A stretch of DNA of 64,000 nt from Saksenaea vasiformis B4078. Its lineage: Eukaryota > Mucoromycota > Mucoromycetes > Mucorales > Saksenaeaceae. The notes beneath the pieces are model-generated. The model made no database searches, was not told the origin of the DNA, and saw only the letters and a list, made by a program, of their open reading frames with translations. The stretch lies in assembly GCA_000697055.1 (NCBI GenBank), contig JNDT01001794.1, positions 62,001 through 126,000 of the forward strand. Reading direction: 5' to 3'. Of the stretch, positions 1-41,203 are shown one piece after another. Numbering within the stretch: the first letter of the stretch is position 1; each line of letters opens with the position of its first letter. A program made the position numbers and the translations under genes.

Positions 1-2
1 GC

Positions 3-3000
3 CGCCACGTTCATAGTGGAACATCGGAGGCAGGTCCCTCCACCGTACCGGTACCGCCTCGCCAGCTGCTGCCAGCTAAATCTGCCCGTCGTCCCGAGCC
101 CGTCGGACATCGCTACCCTGGTACGTCGCCTTTGGACATAATCCTACAGAAAAAGCGTGAAAAGGCGGAAAAGCTTGAACAAGAGGCAAAGGAGCAGGAA
201 CAAGGTAGTGCCATGATACTTCCCTTACAAAGCTAGCTCACATACCCTTATTATCTGATAGTTGTATGCAAGCGATGCCACAGATTAGGCCACCGCGATG
301 CCCGAAGCCGGCAATGTCCCTTAAACAAAAACTTTGATCCTACTGCTCAGGAAGGCAAGCACAATAGATGATATTTTATCTATTTTCTAATACATATATG
401 TAGACAATACAGCATTCAGGAGCCATCGTAAGCGAAAGCTTTCTGAGGCTGAGAAAACAGTAGGGAAAGCTGAGAGACGTCGGGGAAAACGTCAGCGTAG
501 AGAGGCCGTTCAAAACCTAGACGTGTCGAAACGGTGTCCTACCTGTGTTGCAAAAAGGTGCTACGATGATCAAGTCCCTCACGCCTCCCGGCGACATGGA
601 CAGTGCCCATACCATATTGAGTCACTCGAAGAGAGGCTCAAACATACATTGGGTGACAAATACCAGAGATTTGTCCGAAAAATCGGGCTAAGCACCGTGT
701 TACAGCTAACACCAAACCAGAGTGCTGAATTTATACGACATGTCGACGACTTGGTCGATTTTCAGCGAGAAGTTGCTGTCAAATCTCAGTGTTTTGCTTC
801 ATATTATGTGCTGCAAGTTTTGGCTTCTAACCGCGAACCAATGCCTATTCTTTTTTCACAAACATTCTTCTATGCTTGTATCCAGCTGGTGCTTGGTACG
901 TCGATCACAAGCAAAAACCGAAAACTTCCACGAACCGACATGAGACGGTCCTTCCAAGAATTTCATCGCCAATTTCCATCCTGTCTTGTAACAAGCCGTG
1001 ATCTACCTTATGCGCACGCAATGACATCTCTGGCCGTGCAATCGGCGACTATATTCGTCAATTCCATCACAGAACCATTTGAATCTCGCACAATCAAATA
1101 TTTCTTTTTTAAGTTACGAGACCTGGTACAGGTACATACTCACAACCACCTTCTTTACGAGAGTTATTCATCATTATCATATAGGAAATTACAAAGAACG
1201 ATGCGAATGTGATGGCTTGTTACATCTACGACCGTCTATCATTGGTGCGACCTCCAAGTTGGCCATCCACCGTTCGGCGCACCAATGCGTTGCAAACGGC
1301 CGTTCGTGATATCATTCAACGTTGCCGTCCTCGTCTTCCTCCTGGCCCAATTACTTTGGAAACTCTCTCAGCACATCCCGAGAAATATCTGCCTTTCTTG
1401 TATGATATTCTGCAAGGGTTAGAAACATATAACAGAGGAGAAGTGGCACTTGCTGAAGAAGTCCAAACCATTGCAAATCGTAGTTGGGCTTACTCTGTCA
1501 TCCGAACTCTGGATTAATTCGCCGGTCTAGGCCGCCGATATCGTTCTCGACTGGTTACAAGGATAGTTAACGCTGTCAATTCCTCGCAACCAACACCTCT
1601 TGTTGCAGAGCGCTTGTCGCAAGGAGCACTTCGGCAGCTGGAGAACACTGTTGAAACAGCAACGGCCCAAATACGAAATTCAAAGCGATACTTACAAGAA
1701 CTCCAGCAGCTGAGATTCCACAAGCATAAGGCAGGAGGAGTGCTTTTTACCTGAATCCTTCTTAACAGCGAAGCAACGTCGCGTGTTTTCCTTGATGCCA
1801 ATGTATGGTCTCAGAAGGCAGTATGTCACTATCGACATCCAAACGTTTCGACAGTTACTATGTCAGAGCAATATCCCTCTAATTGCGGAACCAGAGGGCG
1901 ATGACCGGACTACAGCACAGTATAAAATGACAACACGGCAGTTCGCATCAATCATGGACTTCAACGAGATCCGTTGCAGAAGGTGAGAAAGAGAAAAATT
2001 AGCAGCGCGTTTTTAATGCATCGAAATAGTTTGTTAGAAGATTTGGAGTTGGATAATCCTCCTGAGATTTTCACGAATCTACTGAGAACTGATGGTTACG
2101 CAGTCGATTTTGTGTTTGCTCGTGCCATTCATGAGAACGATCGTTTACCTGATCTCGAGACCAGTGATTTTGACACCTGGGATCTGGAACATTCGTTCGA
2201 GCTGTGGGGCGCCGACCCCGGTATGACGGAATTTTATGTCGCCAGCAACGGTCATGGCACAGACTCGCATGAGCAACGAAGGATGTCAACCGCAGAATTC
2301 TACACGACGGCTGGATATCGAAAGACGAATGCCAAAATTCTACAAATGAAACGAGAAGAAGAAATACAAGCAATTGAACAAGGAATTACGACTAACAAAA
2401 CAGCCGACATTGAGACCTTGACTACATTCGTGCGGTCACTTTTATCGCGATTACCGCAACTTTTCCGTTTTTGCGATGGAAGACTTACATCTCTGAGATT
2501 TCTCAATTATATCGGCAGACAGCGAGCAGAAGCTGAGATGATCAATATCTTTTTGGACAGCGGAAAAAAGTACAATAGACGGAGGCTAACAACAAAACGA
2601 CGAAAACACAATCAAGGGACCAAATCCGGACGAAGAAACCAAAGGAAGAGAAAAAAGAAAGGCACCAAGTATGTTCCTGGACGAGCAATCATTGTACCTT
2701 ATTTGCTTATATATCTAAATTTTGTAGAAGACCGAAAAGAGATAATCCAAAGACGAGGTATTGAAATGTGTTTAGATACTCGGGATCGGTTTACGAGATA
2801 TACTGTAGAAAATGGCGTAAAGCACCATTGTCAGCACCAAGCAACGAGATCCCTTTAATTGCATTTGGTGATGCCAAGTTCCAGACCAGTATGCGTGGAA
2901 AGGTGTCAGGCCTCGCTGACAGATGTTGCAAGATACTCAAGCGTGCTGAGCGGCAAGGCTTGTTGGTGATGGTGAATATGAAAGAGTACAACACATCCAA

Positions 3001-3256
3001 GGTACAGCCCTCATTATACATACAGTCCAGTTGAACTAATTCTTATGTTTTTCCTTTTTAGGTGTGCTCATTCTGCCGCAACAAGAGCCTCGAAAACCTG
3101 CAGCTGGATAACATTGACGGAACGTTGTACAGTGTACTCGCTTGTAATAGCTGTGGTACGCAGTGGCAGCGCGATGTCAATGCCAGCCGCAACGTGCACT
3201 ATATTGCCACGGTGGAAGCTGGTGGTAAAGAACGTCCAGCCATATTCCTTCCGTAG
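3..3256 (+). pseudogene. Fanzor (eukaryotic TnpB-like RNA-guided nuclease), copy 1, 5'-partial and decayed
   Basis: Fanzors are TE-borne relatives of TnpB/Cas12 with a split RuvC nuclease. Inferred exons: 3-204, 262-354, 413-1131, 1185-1982, 2030-2668, 2776-3001, 3062-3256; splice phases agree throughout. Exon 2 encodes a zinc-knuckle-like CxxCxxxGH...C motif, with a GC-AG intron (355-412) after it. Exon 3 has CPTC...H...CPY. RuvC-I is WGADPG (Asp codon 2214-2216), RuvC-II is the Glu of MKEY (2984-2986), RuvC-III is RDVNASRN (Asp 3173-3175), and a CxxC...CxxC zinc ribbon lies between II and III. Two lesions exist: TAA at 1515-1517, and a frame change in the T-run at 1744-1748; alignment with the copy at 37-40 kb continues through both. 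The gene starts left of the window. It aligns end to end with copy 2 except for an internal stretch of about 100 residues that copy 1 lacks. The family call is firm; nuclease activity is unlikely as it stands. Confidence 0.85.
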
Positions 3257-3386
3257 CTCTCTATCCGTGTAACAAAAACACGCTAGAAGTTTACAGGTAA
3301 GCCATGTTTTATCAAATAATTTTGAAACTCATTGCCAATTTTTTTGTCAGGCGACTGTAGATGCCTCGTTTTCAGTATACCCACAG

Positions 3387-3654: not shown

Positions 3655-6567
3655 CTATGGAAATCGAGAAATCGTGGAAAATAAGGTAAATAAGGTCAAC
3701 CTTTTTGGGGCAACAAAATCACCATCAGTTACTTCGATCAATTGTCCATTCTTTTTTTTCTTTAAATCATCAAGTGCGTCTCTTGCAAACGAGCTTCCTT
3801 GGATCGGCCGCTTTTGGGACCCATCGGATTGCTTCGTCATCTCGCCTCTTTCGTCTCTCGTCAAATCATCAAGTGCTTCTCTCGCAAACGAACTTCTTTG
3901 ATCCGCCGCTTTTTTGGTACCATTCGATTGCTTTGCTGATGTCTTTCTTGTCATCTCTGTAAATATCTCCAAGTTTGGTTTGCGTAATATGAAGTCCTAG
4001 ATCCGCCATTCTTTGGTACCATTCGATCGCTTTGTCGATATTTTTCTTTTCATCTCTGTAAATGTCACCAAGTGTCTATATCACAATATGATATCCTCGA
4101 TCTGCTGCTCTTTGGTAACATTCAATTGCCCTATTGATGTCTCCTTTGTCTTCTCTGTAAGTGTTACCGTGTATCACTTGCGCATGCCCATTTCCTTGAT
4201 CCGCCGCCTTTTGGTGCCATTCAATTGCTTTGTCCATGTCGTCCTTTTCATGATAGTAAATATCTCCAAGTTTCACTTGCGCCTCTTCATCTCCTTGATC
4301 TTCGGGCTTTTTGTACCATTCAATTGATTTCTCAATGTCTTTCTTGTCATATCTGTAAATATATCCAAGTATGCATTGCCCCCAACTATTTCCTTAATCC
4401 GCCGCTTTTTGGTGCCATCCAATTGCTTGGTTGATGTCATATTCCAACCCATTTTCAAGATGGTACATCATTCCACGTGTCAGTTGTGCATCTCCTTGAT
4501 CAGCTGCATTTTTGCGCCATTCATACGCCTTGGAGTACAGTTCTTTGGCTTTCACCCTATTGCTCGTCACGCCACATCCCCAACAATACATGTATGCAAG
4601 ATGATAGTGTCCAATTCCATGTCCCTGATCCGCTGCTTTTCGGCACCATTCAACCGCTTGGTCTCTGTCTTCAGTTACACCTCTGCCATAACAATACATT
4701 TTCCAAGTTTGGTTTGCGCATAGCCATCTCCTTGAACCGCTGCCTTTTTATAGCATCCAACTGCTTTCTTGTAGTCTCGATTCACACCTCGTCCATCTCT
4801 ATGCATATCTCCAAGTCTAGTTTGTGCACCGCTAATTCCTTGGTCAGCTGCCTTTTTGTACCAGTCGTATGCTTTAACGTAATCTTTATTCACATCTATT
4901 CTGCGGTAATACTTCTCGCCAAGATCGAATCGCCCCCACGCATCGTTCCGATCAATTGAATCTTCGTGCAGGTTGGTATAGTCTTTGTTGTCTACCTCCG
5001 CACTTCTTTCATAACTCCGGGTAATCTCACCCTCGTCTTCACTTTCGCGATCGTCTGCTTTTTGCATTATGCTAATATGGTCAATCTCGTCACCGTCATC
5101 GGCATCTTCATCAGCGGACATATTTTCTTCGTGTTCTTGATTGGATGCTTTGTTACTTAGATGAAGGTCTTGCTGCTCTCTGTGCAAGCTGTCTTCATGA
5201 CTGATTAGGTCATTAGAGTCGCGTTGCGCCCCTCTACTTTCTCGGCCAACAGCTTCCAGTTGTACTGCAATATCATCGCTACTGCTGTCATCATCGGAAT
5301 CACCGCTGAATATATCTTTTTCATATCCGTTTTGCAAGTCTTCATGTCCATTGTCTATGGCTCTGCTGCTGCTCTGGTCCAAAACTTGCAGCCAACTCAT
5401 GTCTTCAACATTGTCTCCCATACTTTCATTGCTTCTGGCACGCTGTCTGAAAACTTCTGCAGGGTACTCTTCCACTGCATGCCCAAGCTCGTTATCAGAA
5501 AATGCTTTGTCGTAAACCTCTTCCACTTGTACTCGTTCATACTTCGGAAGAATATGGTAAATTGGGTTCACATCTTTGAACTGGATAATGGCTGGTCTGG
5601 ATCTTGTAGTTGCTTTCCAATTTTCTAATCCATCCACGAAGAATAATCCGGAACCATCGCCTATCGAAAATTTATCTAGCAAGTATCGGAGAGATGTCAG
5701 GAACTTTACCTATGACTTCTCAGTTCTTGTGATTTTTTATGGTGTCTGTAATTCTTTGCGCTACGAACTCACTGGGCTGTATTGCTTCATGCTCATCCTC
5801 CAATTCTCGCCCATTTCCATCCTGTGCCTTTGAAGTCTCTCTTCTACAAGCAAGTAGACCACCTGAACCCAGGGAAGCGGTTAGATAATGTTACACATGT
5901 ATTATCACAGTACCAAGCAAGATTTTGTACGAATGGTAATGTCTAAATCGTCCAAACACGGTTTGCAGGGATTCATACTTCTTCTTATTGGTATCTTCCT
6001 TCAGAGCGTTTTGCACAGCTTCCTTGAAACGTGCAGTTGCTTTGGCATACTCCGGGGATAGATGTACCTGCAGAAAACATCCGATTGAGTCATTCACAAG
6101 TGGTCATTGATTTCCTACTTCTGCCCAAGAAACATAAGAAACGGTGTATCCTATCGAGTCCTTTTTAGCAGACTTTTCACATACTTGACGTGCGCTGCAA
6201 CTAGATTTAGCAGCAATGTCATAAGCAAATGATTTAGACGGCAAGTGGTGCAAGCTGTCATCCATCAATAATCGGTTCATCGAAGTATCTGCCTCGATGG
6301 TTTTCGTACACATATATTCCACAAATGGGCATTTCGCAAGGATGAGTATGAACGAGTCTTAGAGTATTTTCTTTCCCTTCTCCAATTTCTATTGCAGAGT
6401 ATTCAGCGGTGCTCCCGTCAAAATGGAGGCCTCGACTGCATCGGTTGACAATTTCGTAAGTCAAAAATTGACTGAGCTATTCAGAAGATCAGGTAACTCT
6501 ACATAAAGGTATCAGTTTGTCTTGTTATATTAGATAACAGTGCCTCGTTTGACTTGTAGGAACTCAT
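3655..6567 (-). pseudogene. MACPF-like/Sel1-repeat gene, decayed copy S1
   Basis: This is a broken relative of the intact gene at 42801-45979. The 5' exons (6567-6529, about 6470-6120, about 6070-5925) match it closely: ATG start, TYEIVNRCSRGLHFDG-type region, and the FGRF..Y..YKILLG end of the MACPF-like part. A 335-residue block (5682-4675) holds the acidic linker and the first Sel1 repeats. The frame is lost near 4690, where KLGKMYCYGRGV would be expected, and again near 4394 and 4076; degraded repeats continue to about 3655. The first intron donor is AT (6528-6527) where the relatives have GT. A TATA-like ATAAAAGG lies at 6612-6605. Sel1 repeats are protein-interaction solenoids. The MACPF-like label is tentative. 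Confidence 0.75.
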
Positions 6568-6744
6568 GGGAAGCGAATAAAGAAGTGTTTAATTGCCTAT
6601 CCTCCTTTTATCCACTTCAGCGCTCGGTACTGTTCCGCTTAAGTTCCACACGGCTTGGGCTAAACCGACATCGACTGGTACACAAAACTTCAATACTGTG
6701 CAAGTGATAGCTGTATCTTGTCAGCAAACCAATAGCTTGACTAC

Positions 6745-9680: not shown

Positions 9681-11117
9681 ATGGCTGATTACCATAATGT
9701 CTTTCAAAGCAACCCTGGTGCCATTTTAGGTGGATCATGGGGTAATGTGGCAGAAGCGAACAAACCACAGTCGGTCGCTTCCCCACCTCGACAAGCAAGT
9801 GGTGCCAGCAGTGCACACATGTCAGAATACTCAGACGACGACGACGAAGAATACGCTCCTATACAAATGTCAAGTTGGGGCTCACAGAAACCCGTAGCAG
9901 CGCAAGATGACGATGACGATGACGACTACGCTCCTGTTCAAATGAGCAGTTGGGGAGCTCAAGCGGAAGCCGATTCGGGCGACGCGCCTCAGATCAATGT
10001 GACCATGGGCGACTGGGGCTCACTTATCGATCCTAATGTCAAGGTTAAGCCTGGAGGATTGGGCTCTGGTGGTCTGCATAGACGCGGTGCCAACTATAAA
10101 CCAGTCGATGAAGTTTTTATTCTGAATCAACGTTTGAAGAATCAACCGATACCTAAAGGTCCTGGCAGTGGTAAGAAGAAGAAGTCTTCTTCCAAACCCT
10201 CTACACCTAAATCGTCAAAACCATCTACACCCAAATCGTCAAAACCATCTACACCCAGGTCTTCGAAACCATCTACCCCAAAACCCAACTATTCTACACT
10301 TCCATCCAGGCGACCTATTCAAACCGGCGGCGAAGGCTCTGCATGGGGTTCGGGACAGCTGGCGTCCACACCTTTTTGGCAAAATTCCTCCGCTGCAATG
10401 ACTCCTCCTTCCTCATCTTCCGAACACGCTCCAGCCCCTCAGACCACCTCCTCCGAATCGCAATGGTCAGCGGGCGGTGCTGCTCAATCCAAGTGGATAA
10501 CAGGTGGTGCTACCGAGTCCAAGTGGGTCACTAGTAGCACTACCACCGGATCCAAACAACCTCCTCAGTCTGGCTGGACTCCCAGTGCTGCTGCTCCTCC
10601 TCCTGCTCAACCCAGACAACCTGCCACGGCTCCCCCTGTTTCATCTGGATGGGCACCCGCTGCTCCCGCTTCGTCGGAAAGACCACCCGCACCTCCTCCA
10701 TCCTCTGGATGGGCGCCTGCTGCTCCCGTTTCATCCGGATGGCCCCCCGCCGCGCCTGCTGTTCAACCGCAACCGTCAACAAGTGGTGCTGCTTCATCCC
10801 GATGGCTCACAGGCGGTGCAGCGGAATCGAAATGGGTATCCGGTGGTGCTACTGAATCAAAATGGTCAACCAATGTTGCTGAGCCACAACAACCACCTGC
10901 ACAACCACCGCAACGCGAGATCATTTTCAGTTTCAGAATTGAACTTGCACCTGGTATCTATGCACAACTTCCGGTATACGAAACGAACAACTATCTGGAA
11001 TTGGTTGACGAATTTGAAGCGAAGCATCATTTGCAAATTGCAGATGAGGCCAAACAGGCATTTGCTTCAAAGATCGGTGTACTTGTGGAGGCACAGCTTA
11101 AGGCCAGAGGAATGTAG
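9681..11117 (+). CDS. Low-complexity Ser/Pro/Trp-rich protein, function unknown
   Basis: A single-exon frame encodes 478 residues. Two acidic runs (about residues 51-57 and 76-82) are each followed by a YAPxQMSSWG motif, and a related GDWGS motif follows near 110. Residues about 165-205 are KKKK plus about four 8-residue KPSTPKSS-type units (24-bp tandem repeat). The centre is rich in SGWAPAAP- and GGAxESKW-type repeats. The last 70 residues are a folded-looking segment beginning EIIFSFRIELAPGIYAQLPV and continuing with LVDEFEAKH, a pattern of beta strands followed by helices. The spaced SSWG/GDWG/SKW motifs look like short linear interaction motifs. I do not recognise the family. A cytoskeletal or trafficking adaptor would fit, but that is a guess. 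Confidence 0.75.
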   Translation: MADYHNVFQSNPGAILGGSWGNVAEANKPQSVASPPRQASGASSAHMSEYSDDDDEEYAPIQMSSWGSQKPVAAQDDDDDDDYAPVQMSSWGAQAEADSGDAPQINVTMGDWGSLIDPNVKVKPGGLGSGGLHRRGANYKPVDEVFILNQRLKNQPIPKGPGSGKKKKSSSKPSTPKSSKPSTPKSSKPSTPRSSKPSTPKPNYSTLPSRRPIQTGGEGSAWGSGQLASTPFWQNSSAAMTPPSSSSEHAPAPQTTSSESQWSAGGAAQSKWITGGATESKWVTSSTTTGSKQPPQSGWTPSAAAPPPAQPRQPATAPPVSSGWAPAAPASSERPPAPPPSSGWAPAAPVSSGWPPAAPAVQPQPSTSGAASSRWLTGGAAESKWVSGGATESKWSTNVAEPQQPPAQPPQREIIFSFRIELAPGIYAQLPVYETNNYLELVDEFEAKHHLQIADEAKQAFASKIGVLVEAQLKARGM

Positions 11118-37212: not shown

Positions 37213-40200
37213 TCAATGTGGTGGCGACTGTGGTTCGGTTCGGCTGAAAATCAACGGTCGCGCGCCAGAAAGGATACATGATATAGAAATAGCATGCATA
37301 TTTCGCGATGCATTGTGAACCCTTTGCCAAATAGTTCCGCAACTTCTACAGCTCAGAATGCTATGCAAATGTTGATTAGCACCGATCGCAAGGTTGTCCA
37401 ATTCTTGGGCGCCACACTTTGAACATACTTGAGACGTACAATATTCATCGACGTGTATGACCACCAAACGTCCCTCGCCTTCTGCTCGTTTCATCAGCCT
37501 TTTGCAACGGTTTGCCAACCCGGCAGGTTTTGCCCCATATGAGTTACGTCCAAAGTTGGCGTTACCAAAACAAATCAGGGGAACTTTGGAGCTGTCATTG
37601 TCAATAGGCGCCTTTTTCCATTTGCTATTGAATGCAACAAAAGTTAAATACCGATATACTGGAACAAACGAATAGTTACTCACTTTTGCCTAACCGATCG
37701 CTCCATTTGGGGGCACGTTGGAGTTGGTCAGCGGTTTCCGACGTCTTTTGCGTCTTGTTCCGTCTGGTCTCACACTTTGCTGGTAGCTCTCGGGAGATAA
37801 ACCTGAACGGCTTCCTTGAGCGCCACTATAACTTCCGTACTTAACACCACTATCAGTTAGCATATTGACAGCTCCGCGTCCATTCGCTGACGTCCGCGAT
37901 AATTGTTAAATTTCATTTGTTGGAAATCTTTGTCGTAAAACTGGATCAGCGTAGGAAAAACTTCAAGAGCCCTGCCAACATAGTCCCGGATTCCTTCTAG
38001 TGTCGACACCTTTGCTGTAGGCATACCTGACTCTACCGGACCAATATCGGCGTCATCTTTCTTTTGCTTTGTTTTTGCAACTGTTTTGTCGAATCCGGCG
38101 CGCACGTAATATTCGGCGGAAGATATGCGGCGTATTTCATGAGCGCCGTTCTGTTCATCATCGGATTCGTCAGATGAAAGCTCAGGAAGCTCCCGTGCTC
38201 CAACTGAGTCAACACTGGTATAAGCGTCCAAGTTGCTCCCGTCGCTGCCAACAAAAATCTCTGTCACGCCGGGATCGACGCCCCATACCCTAAAGTATTC
38301 CAACTCCCATGGTTGGAAATCCTCAAAATCAAGGGCTGGCAGTACTTCATGACCGGAGATCTTCTTGTTGAACAAGACCGATACCGCATACCCATCCGTG
38401 TCGATGCTATTGTTGAAAAACAATCCTGTATTTCTATATTTGTCCATCCAAATTTTAAAAAAGTTAACTTTTATAATTGATAAGTGCTTCGTTCTTACCT
38501 ATGCGGACCGTGACGGACTGTGGATAAATCAAAGACATTAGTGAAAATGGGCAGAGGCATTAATGGATCGGTTGAGGTGCCCCTTCTCGGAATATAATCG
38601 CTGAGATCGGCTGCTCGAAGTAGCTGTCCTAAGATCTGCTGGTCAATATGTATGTGCTTTTTAGTGAACTGGGGCTTTGGGACCAGAGAGAGAAGACGTT
38701 CGGTCTTGGCTACGTGGTGCAATTCTGGACGGAATGTAAATGGCAACAGCTCTCTATTTCCGATATGATCCTCGAGATAGACACCAGAAACCTCGATTTG
38801 AACCTGTGCCTCGTTCACGGCATCACGAAGCAGTCGCACGGACTCCTGAGAAATGTTTGTGATTGCCTGCGCGTCAAATGGACGTTGCTGATCCACAAGC
38901 CGACATAACAAATGGGAAAGTGATTGTTTGCGACGACGACCCATAGTGCTGTGTTTAGGTAACGTCTTGAGGACGTCCCTCGCCCAGCCAATGGGGGCTT
39001 CAACTTGCGCATCATCTGCTGAAATTACCTGCTGCTGGTTGTATTCCTCGAATTGTTGCTGTATCCGAAAGGCGAAGTGGACGAAGAACTGGGGATATCG
39101 GGATAAAAGCATTGTTGTTAAATGTTTTCTTGAGGACTCTTGCCCATCAGCAACGGTAAGCCTCCTAATTTCACGCAATAGTCCAGTATCACCAAATACA
39201 TCCGCCGTCATGGACATATGAGCAGCATAGTCTGCGTGTCGTCGAACACGATTAGCATTAGCAATGGCTTGATGATAGGTATTCATGGAGATCATCAACG
39301 CTTCGGTTGATGCATTGACGGAGATATTTGCTGATAGTACAGTCGGTGTTGCATCTTGATCGACTTCTGTCAAAGCCGAATCCACGAGCGATCGTAACTG
39401 GGTCATTATTTGGAGGCAACCATGGAGGATTCCATGCGTTAAGGAGAAATCAAAGCCGTCTGTGTTCTGTAAGCTCAAGGCACCAATGATGGTATTCAAC
39501 GCATGTAAAACAGAGTCAATAAGAGCCATAATGGTAGGAATATGGTGGAATTGGAAAGAAGCTCCAGGATAGCTGAGAGCGATGAAACCGAGGTGTGTGC
39601 TTCAATAACAGCAAATATGGTTTCGAAATCAGTCGTTGTCCCATCCACTAGTCCTTCAACAGCGTCATTGATATTATCCGCCATGCTTTCATCGATGTGA
39701 GTACTATCCGGCCATACCGGAGGGAAGAGTACATCATCAGCACAAGTCTGATAGATAAATCTGGCCAGCTTGTATGCATCATTTTTTCGAAGGTCCTAGG
39801 CATCGATTAATATGAATATAAGATGCGCTACAAGGTGCTCACTTACAGGAACTAGTTGCCGTAACAGCAATTGTAACGACGATGCAGTCCATGCGGCAAA
39901 ATTCTCGACAATATTGTTAGTCATGCAAGCGCTATATGTTTCCGCTGTTGAAGAAAGCATATGGCTGTACCGTTGTTCGCCATGAATGGGTCGGACCCAG
40001 CAGGTTGGGAACTCGACAAGGAACTCTCGAAAGCTCAATGTCAGTGATCCTCTCAGTTCGTCCGTGATAACCACAGTGTTTGTTATTTGCTGTCCCGTGA
40101 TGAGCTGGAAAACCGAGTAGAAGAAATCTTTGCTGAAGACCAGTGCGGGTAACGGTTGCTGATTGTTCAGTTACCGATACACAAAGAAATTGACAAACAA

Positions 40201-40690
40201 ATGGCTCTTGATTACGACCTCCCGGTTGTAATCAACTACATCGTCAATCACGCTTATCAGTGTTTTTCTCAGAAGATGGTAGACTTATAAACTTGTCTAA
40301 ACCGGTTTTCCTGACAGTCTTTCGGACTTTGCCTACTTCCTGGCGAAGTTGCGCGATATTCCTTAGCTTCTGGTACGGGCAAAGAAGAGAGGAGCTCCTG
40401 CTATGTGTTTTGGCGGTATCAAAGCTGTTATTTCTCAAGCACGTGGGACACTGCGGACGAGGTTTCTGTACATCATCTTTCCATCGAAGGGAACGGGCAG
40501 TGCTCTTTTGCAACGTTTCGTCGGAATTTTGCTTCCGCTTTTGCGCTCGTCTTCCAGCCGGCCGTTGACGTCGCTGCCTATCCGATGGGCCAGGTTGATC
40601 ATCGCTTTGATTGCCAAGCTGTTGTTGGCGTTCTTCTAACAGCTCCATATTAGCGATTCGTGTGAATATACTGCTCCTCTGTACTCACCC
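37213..40690 (-). pseudogene. Fanzor (eukaryotic TnpB-like nuclease), copy 2, decayed
   Basis: It aligns along its length with the copy at 3-3256. It starts upstream of 40689 (intron 40688-40636), then the CPTC...H...LLCPY region, a long helical middle, WGVDPG (RuvC-I Asp codon 38276-38274), VDEY (RuvC-II Glu 37446-37444), a CSKCG...CRSCG zinc ribbon, and ends at 37213. RuvC-III reads RVHNASRN instead of RDVNASRN: the catalytic Asp is Val (codon at 37320-37318). Further lesions are a +1 shift in an A-run near 40262, a TAA at 40173-40171, a frame change near 39530 and a one-base loss near 37870. Introns matching copy 1 occur after the RQLVP/RDLVQ block and before the RuvC-I exon. The gene is dead as a nuclease. 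The zinc-knuckle exon of copy 1 was not found here. Confidence 0.85.
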
Positions 40691-41203
40691 TCTTTTGCCG
40701 CTAACTGCTTTTTTGGCCGTTTTTTAATAGGATTATATCTCGGTGAGATATTCCTTCGTAACTGATCAATCGTGGTAAATCCATAAGTTTTTGATAATGA
40801 GAGCTCTGACAGGAAGGAGAGGGAAAGAGTGGGAAGGTACAAGGAAAAGCCCTTGATAAGAAAGTTGCCTTTTCTTCCAGTCAGAAACCAGTCATCCAGA
40901 AAAGAAAATAGTCTTTCCAATCTATCAGAAACCGATCACGCAGAAAGACATTCTTTGTTTCATCAGATACTGTGAAATCCAAGTAAACTTCAAAAGAATG
41001 AAAAACATGTATAACAAAAATAAGTCCTTGAAAGGGATCGTAGTAGTTTCGTGAAGTGTCACGATAATAAGAAATAGGAGATTTTCTGCGAGAAGGACCA
41101 ATGGCCGAAGTGTAAAAACACTTACTAAGTTGCGTCGTTTCCCGTCTTTTGCTGTACTGTGCAACACGTTTGGTCATTGTACTTTACGTGAAGTATTATT
41201 TTG

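Follow-up and report, generated by a model that had tools for sequence, protein, structure and literature searches.

A relic of a Tc1/mariner-Fanzor1 transposon whose right end resembles a two-stem omegaRNA with a candidate intron

The left edge of the window (the whole stretch of 64,000 nucleotides analysed here, part of contig C376) carries a Fanzor copy, copy 1 (window 1–3359), which by its sequence is a recently broken relic of a composite Tc1/mariner-Fanzor1 transposon. A composite explanation, according to which this is a broken copy of an element that would combine transposition at TA, cutting at AGTA and a candidate spliced omegaRNA, is in our judgement very probably correct. Homology of copy 1 to other copies, as found by blastn, runs from window position −881 (C376:61120) to about 3360. 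The start at position 3 given in a preliminary description was thus only the window edge, the homology of the element beginning 881 bases further left; this left part (C376:61120–62000) lies outside the window, and the left terminal repeat is missing. The features of the copy and of its right end are collected in Table 1.

Table 1. Coordinates of the features of copy 1, its right end and copy 2 in the window.
Feature	Position	Strand	Basis or remark
Right part of Tc1/mariner-type Fanzor1 element	1..3359	+	blastn against other copies
N-terminal exon, end part, with SPLDIILQKKREK motif common to paralogues	1..204	+	
Zinc-knuckle exon (knuckle 267–317, CKRCHRLGHRDARSRQC)	262..354	+	Exon end approximate (GC-AG intron)
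Exon with C-x2-C...H...C-P-Y-H module (535–615) and helical REC-like domain	420..1131	+	Model of paralogue C484
Exon with two lesions (TAA 1515–1517; frameshift near 1705–1715)	1185..1982	+	
Exon with TDG motif and RuvC-I (WGADPG, D at 2214–2216)	2038..2668	+	
Short basic exon	2728..2757	+	
Exon with RuvC-II (E at 2984–2986)	2809..3001	+	
Last coding exon: C4 zinc ribbon 3065–3154 (PF07282), RuvC-III (D at 3173–3175), stop TAG 3254–3256	3062..3256	+	
Candidate omegaRNA stem-loop 1, CGUGU-AACAAAA-ACACG	3266..3282	+	Other families have a similar loop and differing arms that still pair
Stem-loop 2, 5' arm (UACAG)	3292..3296	+	
54-nt GT-AG intron-like segment (GTAAGC ... TTTTTTTGTCAG)	3297..3350	+	Putatively spliced
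Right terminal inverted repeat	3334..3357	+	
Stem-loop 2, GCGA loop and 3' arm CUGUA, including TA target duplication (3358–3359)	3351..3359	+	
Flanking DNA, would-be guide	3360..3380	+	Adjoins right end; predicted from Fanzor1 reRNA layout in main text of PMC10711439
Copy 2 (family II), which has a stem-loop 1 and an intron-like segment of its own	37218..40700	−	

The last four coding exons of copy 1 join into a single frame whose sole stop is the final codon. Six introns had been called for; with ends adjusted by eye, we count seven coding introns, six with clear ends (205–261, 1132–1184, 1983–2037, 2669–2727, 2758–2808 and 3002–3061; 51–61 bases each) and an uncertain GC-AG intron from about 355 to 403–419, the start of the exon that follows being approximate (404–420). 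The frame had also been described as broken only twice. This is true within the window, where a TAA codon and a frameshift were found, but an additional TAG lies just left of it. The copy adjoins Sel1-repeat genes (window 4076–5709, − strand, and C376:60001–61091; PF08238, E 1.2e-16 and 1.2e-15), and its left flank is a duplicate of window 5573–6663 (76% identical).

Membership of copy 1 in Fanzor1 is well supported. All four motifs named in the preliminary description, WGADPG, MKEY (MKEYNTSKVC), a CxxC...CxxC ribbon and RDVNASRN (QRDVNASRN), are present, and the profile check proposed there gave a PF07282 match at 3062–3253 that lies barely above its cut-off (27.4 versus 26.3 bits, E 3.7e-6). 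A regular expression for the motif of Bao and Jurka (2013), D-X(125,275)-[TS][TS]-X2-C4 finger-X(5,50)-RD, matched the joined exons 2038–3256. As regards the features set out in the main text of Yoon et al. (2023), copy 1 has DPG at RuvC-I together with the rearranged glutamate E-x6-CxxC (WGADPG, EYNTSKVCSFC) and the TDG motif in WED (LLRTDGYAVDF); its spacings of 219 and 22 residues fall outside the filter given in that text (120–160 residues, 12–18 in the finger). The T and G of the TDG column are invariant in profile A1, and C484 reads TAG. When the family profile was run against the PDB, SpuFz1 came first in both of two profile searches (E 1.3e-9 and 7e-9), and PpFz1 (Parasitella parasitica; PDB 9cf0–9cf3) was a weaker sequence match (E 0.016 and 0.022). 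Fanzors were the best fold matches both of a predicted model of the N-terminal exon of paralogue C484 and of the predicted model of a homologue (VIA-align; pLDDT 51.7, pTM 0.30). Profiles were needed for these matches: a single-sequence phmmer search with one paralogue found none in the PDB, nor did a word search yield any in the protein database. Nuclease activity can be presumed for the family. The RuvC-III motif of copy 2 reads QRVHNASRN where its sister locus L053 has QRDHNASRN, so that the third catalytic aspartate is lost.

The N-terminal zinc motifs claimed earlier held up to different degrees. A zinc knuckle was located in its exon, but its match to zf-CCHC_6 (E 0.0051; 4e-4 in a paralogue) was below the cut-off in both sequences. 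The CPTC...H...CPY motif is present in copy 1, in the form listed in Table 1, and recurs in copy 2 as had been stated. The C, C, H and C of this module are invariant in seven of seven rows of alignment A5, and in A4 (24 rows) two of them are invariant and the other two conserved in at least 90%; the seven A5 rows and copy 2 have in common C-x2-C, an H in an S/R-rich stretch and C-x2-[HYQ]. A shortened zinc module was seen by eye at the N-terminus of homologue P0016. The zinc knuckle was found in groups I, I', C484, L120-type and L123-type, and the upstream sequence inspected for copy 2 and for family III showed none. Sequence searches of the PDB with the N-terminal profiles A4 and A5 returned no Fanzor (A5 at E up to 10). 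Upstream of the knuckle (L058:4817–5177, L060), an acidic DDDSQLQLAVQLSRQ motif resembles a ubiquitin-interacting motif. A ubiquitin-interacting motif at the N-terminus was rejected: of four N-terminal pieces the best scored 15.2 bits (E 0.019; Pfam cut-off 21), another 12.5 bits, and two gave no score.

A search of the whole assembly for paralogues (38.7 Mb, 666 contigs), as had been suggested, excluded a chance resemblance. It returned at least 137 TNB matches from the 150 of 388 candidates that were scored, copy 1 being absent among the matches listed, together with 141 matches to the N-terminal exon and 132 to the RuvC exon, counts in which a single locus can yield several matches. Grouped by eye, the right ends of the Fanzor elements are of at least eight kinds. 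Profile A1 retrieved 19 proteins, eight of them from Helicostylum, Thamnidium, Radiomyces, Apophysomyces, Halteromyces or Cunninghamella and annotated as hypothetical, uncharacterised or unnamed. Four of these six genera are placed in Mucorales by the taxonomy, and the remaining two presumably belong there as well. On this basis the host is probably a fungus of the Mucorales. For the N-terminal exons, dN/dS was 0.20–0.35 in seven of nine usable pairs, with weaker constraint for copy 1 versus C630 (0.66) and L117 versus L121 (0.75); four of the 13 pairs compared had saturated dS and were dropped, including a mis-framed one (L018). The low dN/dS supports past selection on the Fanzor family. Family VIII (L072, L073; C419, C525) is a distant Fanzor family: L072 is a single long open frame of 772 codons with RuvC-I reading GADPR, and L073 has an N-terminal C-x-C...H...C motif. 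A second copy of the C484 type, which would have fixed its right end, was not found, the search returning, besides the locus itself, a single partial match.

The ends of the family are of the Tc1/mariner type, with a TA target duplication and CAGT-type terminal inverted repeats. Left ends read TA-CAGTCRC.TGAC... and right ends ...GTCAGGYGACTG-TA, of which copy 1 keeps the right end only; the C391 copy is 4308 bases long. Elements with the same repeat match PF01498 (L056, E 1.3e-20; L058, E 5.6e-19), Tc1-type transposase reading frames lie ahead of Fanzor pieces in L055, L057 and L058, and DDE_3 matches were found beside the same terminal repeat at C658, C325 and C254. The first 280 bases of the copy 1 element align to L059 at 70% (blastn E 1.3e-20), and the start of the C391 copy aligns to L059 in tblastx (E 6e-26). 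For the C391 relic, the identity is 61% over 38 residues; a Pfam search with a 49-residue piece of it gave no match. Judged by these alignments, the 5' end of the copy 1 element, outside the window, is a Tc1 transposase relic, which is described here for the first time, as are the related elements that combine such a transposase with Fanzor pieces. A search for empty sites returned only the locus itself and C342, which also adjoins a Fanzor element.

The dinucleotide AG precedes TA at 16 of 17 left ends versus 2 of 26 right ends, the background being 508 of 7208 (7%). It is present at all 12 left ends with the I' repeat (L055–L059, L135–L141) and at four of five with the I repeat (C391, C104, C358 and C633; C282 has AC). 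Right ends, read inward, had AG at 1 of 21 (L147) before L143, L146, L149, L152 and L154 were added, of which L146 has AG. Outside these counts stand the TIR-like matches L142, L144 and L145, which fit neither end, and the left end of C206. Because the bias is left-only, a pattern not to be expected from a transposase that recognises TA symmetrically, it predicts a TAM of AGTA, a prediction new to this work. Alternatively, AG may be part of the element or a preference of the transposase, a view that we consider rather unlikely. It draws on the fact that no empty site in the genome fixes the element boundary, and some of the left ends come from transposase-bearing elements (L056, L059) whose right part is unread; moreover, Tc1 transposases can show flank preferences. 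It is countered by the confinement of AG to the left, as for TAMs, and by a parallel in the text of PMC10432273 available to us, where CA is conserved upstream of the Spu-1 left repeat and the SpuFz1 TAM is CATA. Read as the trace of a TAM, the left-only bias suggests that RNA-guided retention shaped where the elements persist.

The 3' end of copy 1 looks like a two-stem omegaRNA, a resemblance that is also new here. Stem-loop 1, near the stop codon, has a nearly constant loop among the families (AACAAAA, AUCAAAA, AUCAAAG or AACAGAA), and its arms differ yet pair (CGUGU/ACACG, CUGU/ACAG, UACGU/ACGUA, CGCGU/ACGCG and CUCAU/AUGAG). The 5' arm of stem-loop 2 pairs with the final bases of the element including TA, as UACAG/CUGUA in I and I' (loops GCGA and GUGA; GCAA in C206 and C500), UACACUGCU/AGUAGUGUA in II, UACAGUU/AACUGUA with GAAA in III and UACAUC/GAUGUA with UUCG in VIII. 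In each of these, the arms are separated by a segment that starts GTAAG, GTAAA or GTATG and ends AG. Splicing of this segment would, in families I, II, III and VIII, join the scaffold to the guide, an arrangement proposed here for the first time. Model R1 of the omegaRNA retains only 8 pairs. Families V–VII (L076, L079, L080, L084, L085, L089, L097) have compact right ends with GTTA or GTTAT; in contrast, within the same genome, their copies show the intron-like pattern in none of seven cases. In family IV (L048, L090, L096, L101, L106, L109, L110), a motif resembling GAC-NNN-GUC close to the stop codon is followed by a strong donor, GTAAGTAT. Were an inner acceptor, TTTTTGTAG, used there, AUGUC/GACAU arms could pair across; inspected by eye, this helix carries a mismatch in L048, and in L109 its U-A pair is replaced by C-G.

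GT-AG ends with a pyrimidine-rich acceptor were found in I, I', II and VIII; branch points were judged by eye. All tests of the segment are post hoc, the split-guide idea having arisen from families I–III before VIII and the numeric criteria having been set after all families. A loose test, asking for a GT-AG pair and a hairpin as good, was reached per 1000 dinucleotide shuffles by 17 (I), 27 (I'), 0 (II), 4 (III) and 72 (VIII); family IV forms no such hairpin. A strict test required that the donor fit the consensus, that a pyrimidine-rich acceptor lie no further than 12 bases from the end, and that a tetraloop stem form flush with 5 or more pairs. It was reached per 20,000 shuffles by 2 (I), 2 (I'), 4 (II) and 3 (VIII), and family III fails at the acceptor, which is weak (AAAAG). 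Real sequence passed it at 22 of 127,808 positions for length 96, 24 of 127,788 for 106, 22 of 127,758 for 121 (four in each case being this site) and 15 of 127,580 for 210, a rate of 1.2–1.9 per 10,000 positions. Copy by copy, with L008, L094 and L103 of family II left out, 6/10 passed in I/I', 6/7 in II and 2/3 in VIII (14/20 together), 0/8 in III and 0/11 in IV–VII. The I/I' failures were C282, where much of the segment is deleted, C206, where the donor is changed, and C500 and C202, where a shifted stop codon put the donor outside the tested stretch. Splice sites are altered at the donor in C206 and L094, and at the acceptor in L053 (family II, G lost) and C175. Families I and I' are related and have common terminal-repeat constraints and so are not two independent cases; support from family VIII comes from L072 and L073, without L107.

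Variation between copies was also compared. In six copies of family III, with L005, L006 (C175) and L091 left out, none of 33 columns varied in the flanks versus 32 of 146 in the middle; L005 and L091 have a single-base difference in the 3' exon, and C175 is without the acceptor AG. The variable columns of family II were 10/52 in the flanks, 5/8 in the donor stretch and 23/54 in the middle. Its arm helix shows a double change in L092 and a G-U to G-C change in L008, a covariation that is weak (165 of 500 shuffles attain it); a local hairpin spanning the donor is conserved to the same degree (98.3% of cells). A search for the intronless junction pattern gave 8 matches versus 15 for the reversed control, none above the control. 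A sequence one mismatch from the family I junction pattern, TTTGCAGGCAACTGTA, occurs twice, inverted, on C517 (G000:C517:1573–1588 and 10678–10693) and once on C519:8270–8285.

From these patterns we propose that several Fanzor1 families may encode split guide RNAs, with scaffold and guide on separate exons, from which the spliceosome would have to remove a small intron at the right end of the transposon to create a hairpin that abuts the guide; our confidence in this proposal is evenly balanced. Its chief competitor, somewhat less probable but to be taken seriously, is an unspliced omegaRNA: the GT-AG segment would have been inserted into the loop of stem-loop 2, with arms that pair at a distance or give way to a local hairpin. 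When folded unspliced, I, I' and VIII pair the identical arms, a local GUUUAC/GUAAAC hairpin is kept in family II, and the region past stem-loop 1 may be unconstrained according to the section of PMC11423790 available to us. An unspliced RNA leaves unexplained, however, why GT..AG ends with pyrimidine-rich acceptors occur in the unrelated families I, II and VIII, why the 54-nt length is near the 51–61 nt of the coding introns, and why the flanks are invariant in the six copies of family III. It is also conceivable, at low probability, that host transcripts use the acceptor at the right end to splice out the whole element, as happens with IStron group I introns, guide adjacency being a by-product. 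Such a role would suit families I, I', II and VIII, whose strong acceptors are 5–10 nt away from that end, but no consensus donor was seen by eye near the left ends of I and I', and the conserved donor sits 3' of the Fanzor stop codon.

In working relatives of copy 1, then, a transposase of the Tc1 type would move the element by cut and paste at TA, and an omegaRNA, spliced or not, would be made from the 3' end of the element and load the Fanzor1 protein, its guide being host DNA at the right flank. Fanzor1 would cut the empty site beside the TAM (predicted AGTA), and repair would copy the element back. With a split guide, the GT-AG segment would separate the scaffold (stem-loop 1 and the 5' arm of stem-loop 2) from the 3' arm and guide, and its removal would create a short stem immediately ahead of the guide. 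Observed for this scheme are the Fanzor1 kinship, the ends, the transposase relic, the AG-TA bias, the intron-like boundaries and the stems, the last both in sequence and in predicted folds; omegaRNA expression, splicing, cleavage and homing are what we infer.

The known system closest to the family is SpuFz1 (Spizellomyces punctatus; PDB 8gkh, 9ceu–9cez), the best profile match and among the best fold matches. Both have the order REC, RuvC, TNB and the D-E-D triad and, as far as the accessible texts of PMC11423790 and PMC10432273 describe it, SpuFz1 likewise has a two-stem omegaRNA ahead of the guide and a conserved dinucleotide left of its element. Unlike SpuFz1, the family adds roughly 200 N-terminal residues with the zinc knuckle and the C-C-H-C module; copy 1 also differs in its 219 residues from RuvC-I to RuvC-II, its candidate omegaRNA intron and a predicted AGTA instead of CATA. 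In that part of PMC11423790, one stem-loop stands between stem-loop 1 and the guide in SpuFz1 and PpFz1, and the predicted folds of the spliced form would have the same single stem-loop before the guide. PUl-1, PUl-4 and PGv-1, in the sections consulted of Bao and Jurka (2013, PMC3627910), likewise have a TA duplication, Mariner repeats and Fanzor1 with or without a Mariner transposase. Those sections name MuDr-type Fanzor families in Rhizopus, Phycomyces and Mucor and one unclassified Mucor family, whereas the elements here are of the Tc1/mariner type in a Mucorales-like genome. In the SfAV Fanzor1 reRNA, according to the main text of Yoon et al. (2023, PMC10711439), the scaffold takes in the terminal repeat and the target duplication, as here, and reads reach about 15 nt beyond the duplication; 'intron' and 'splic' occur there 0 times. 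No spliced Fanzor guide RNA was found in the literature searched by title and abstract start, a search with most subscription journals outside it; the nearest theme, from the abstract-level text of PMC12558985, is circular omegaRNAs in archaea.

Little is known about how Fanzor guides are produced in eukaryotes and what role they have for hosts or transposons. For such questions, a genome with at least 137 TNB matches and eight or more kinds of right end lends itself to comparison. If the split-guide proposal is true, an RNA-guided nuclease of transposon origin would depend on nuclear splicing for its guide; guide production would be tied to the nucleus, and a bacterial-type guide RNA would have been adapted to eukaryotic transcription.
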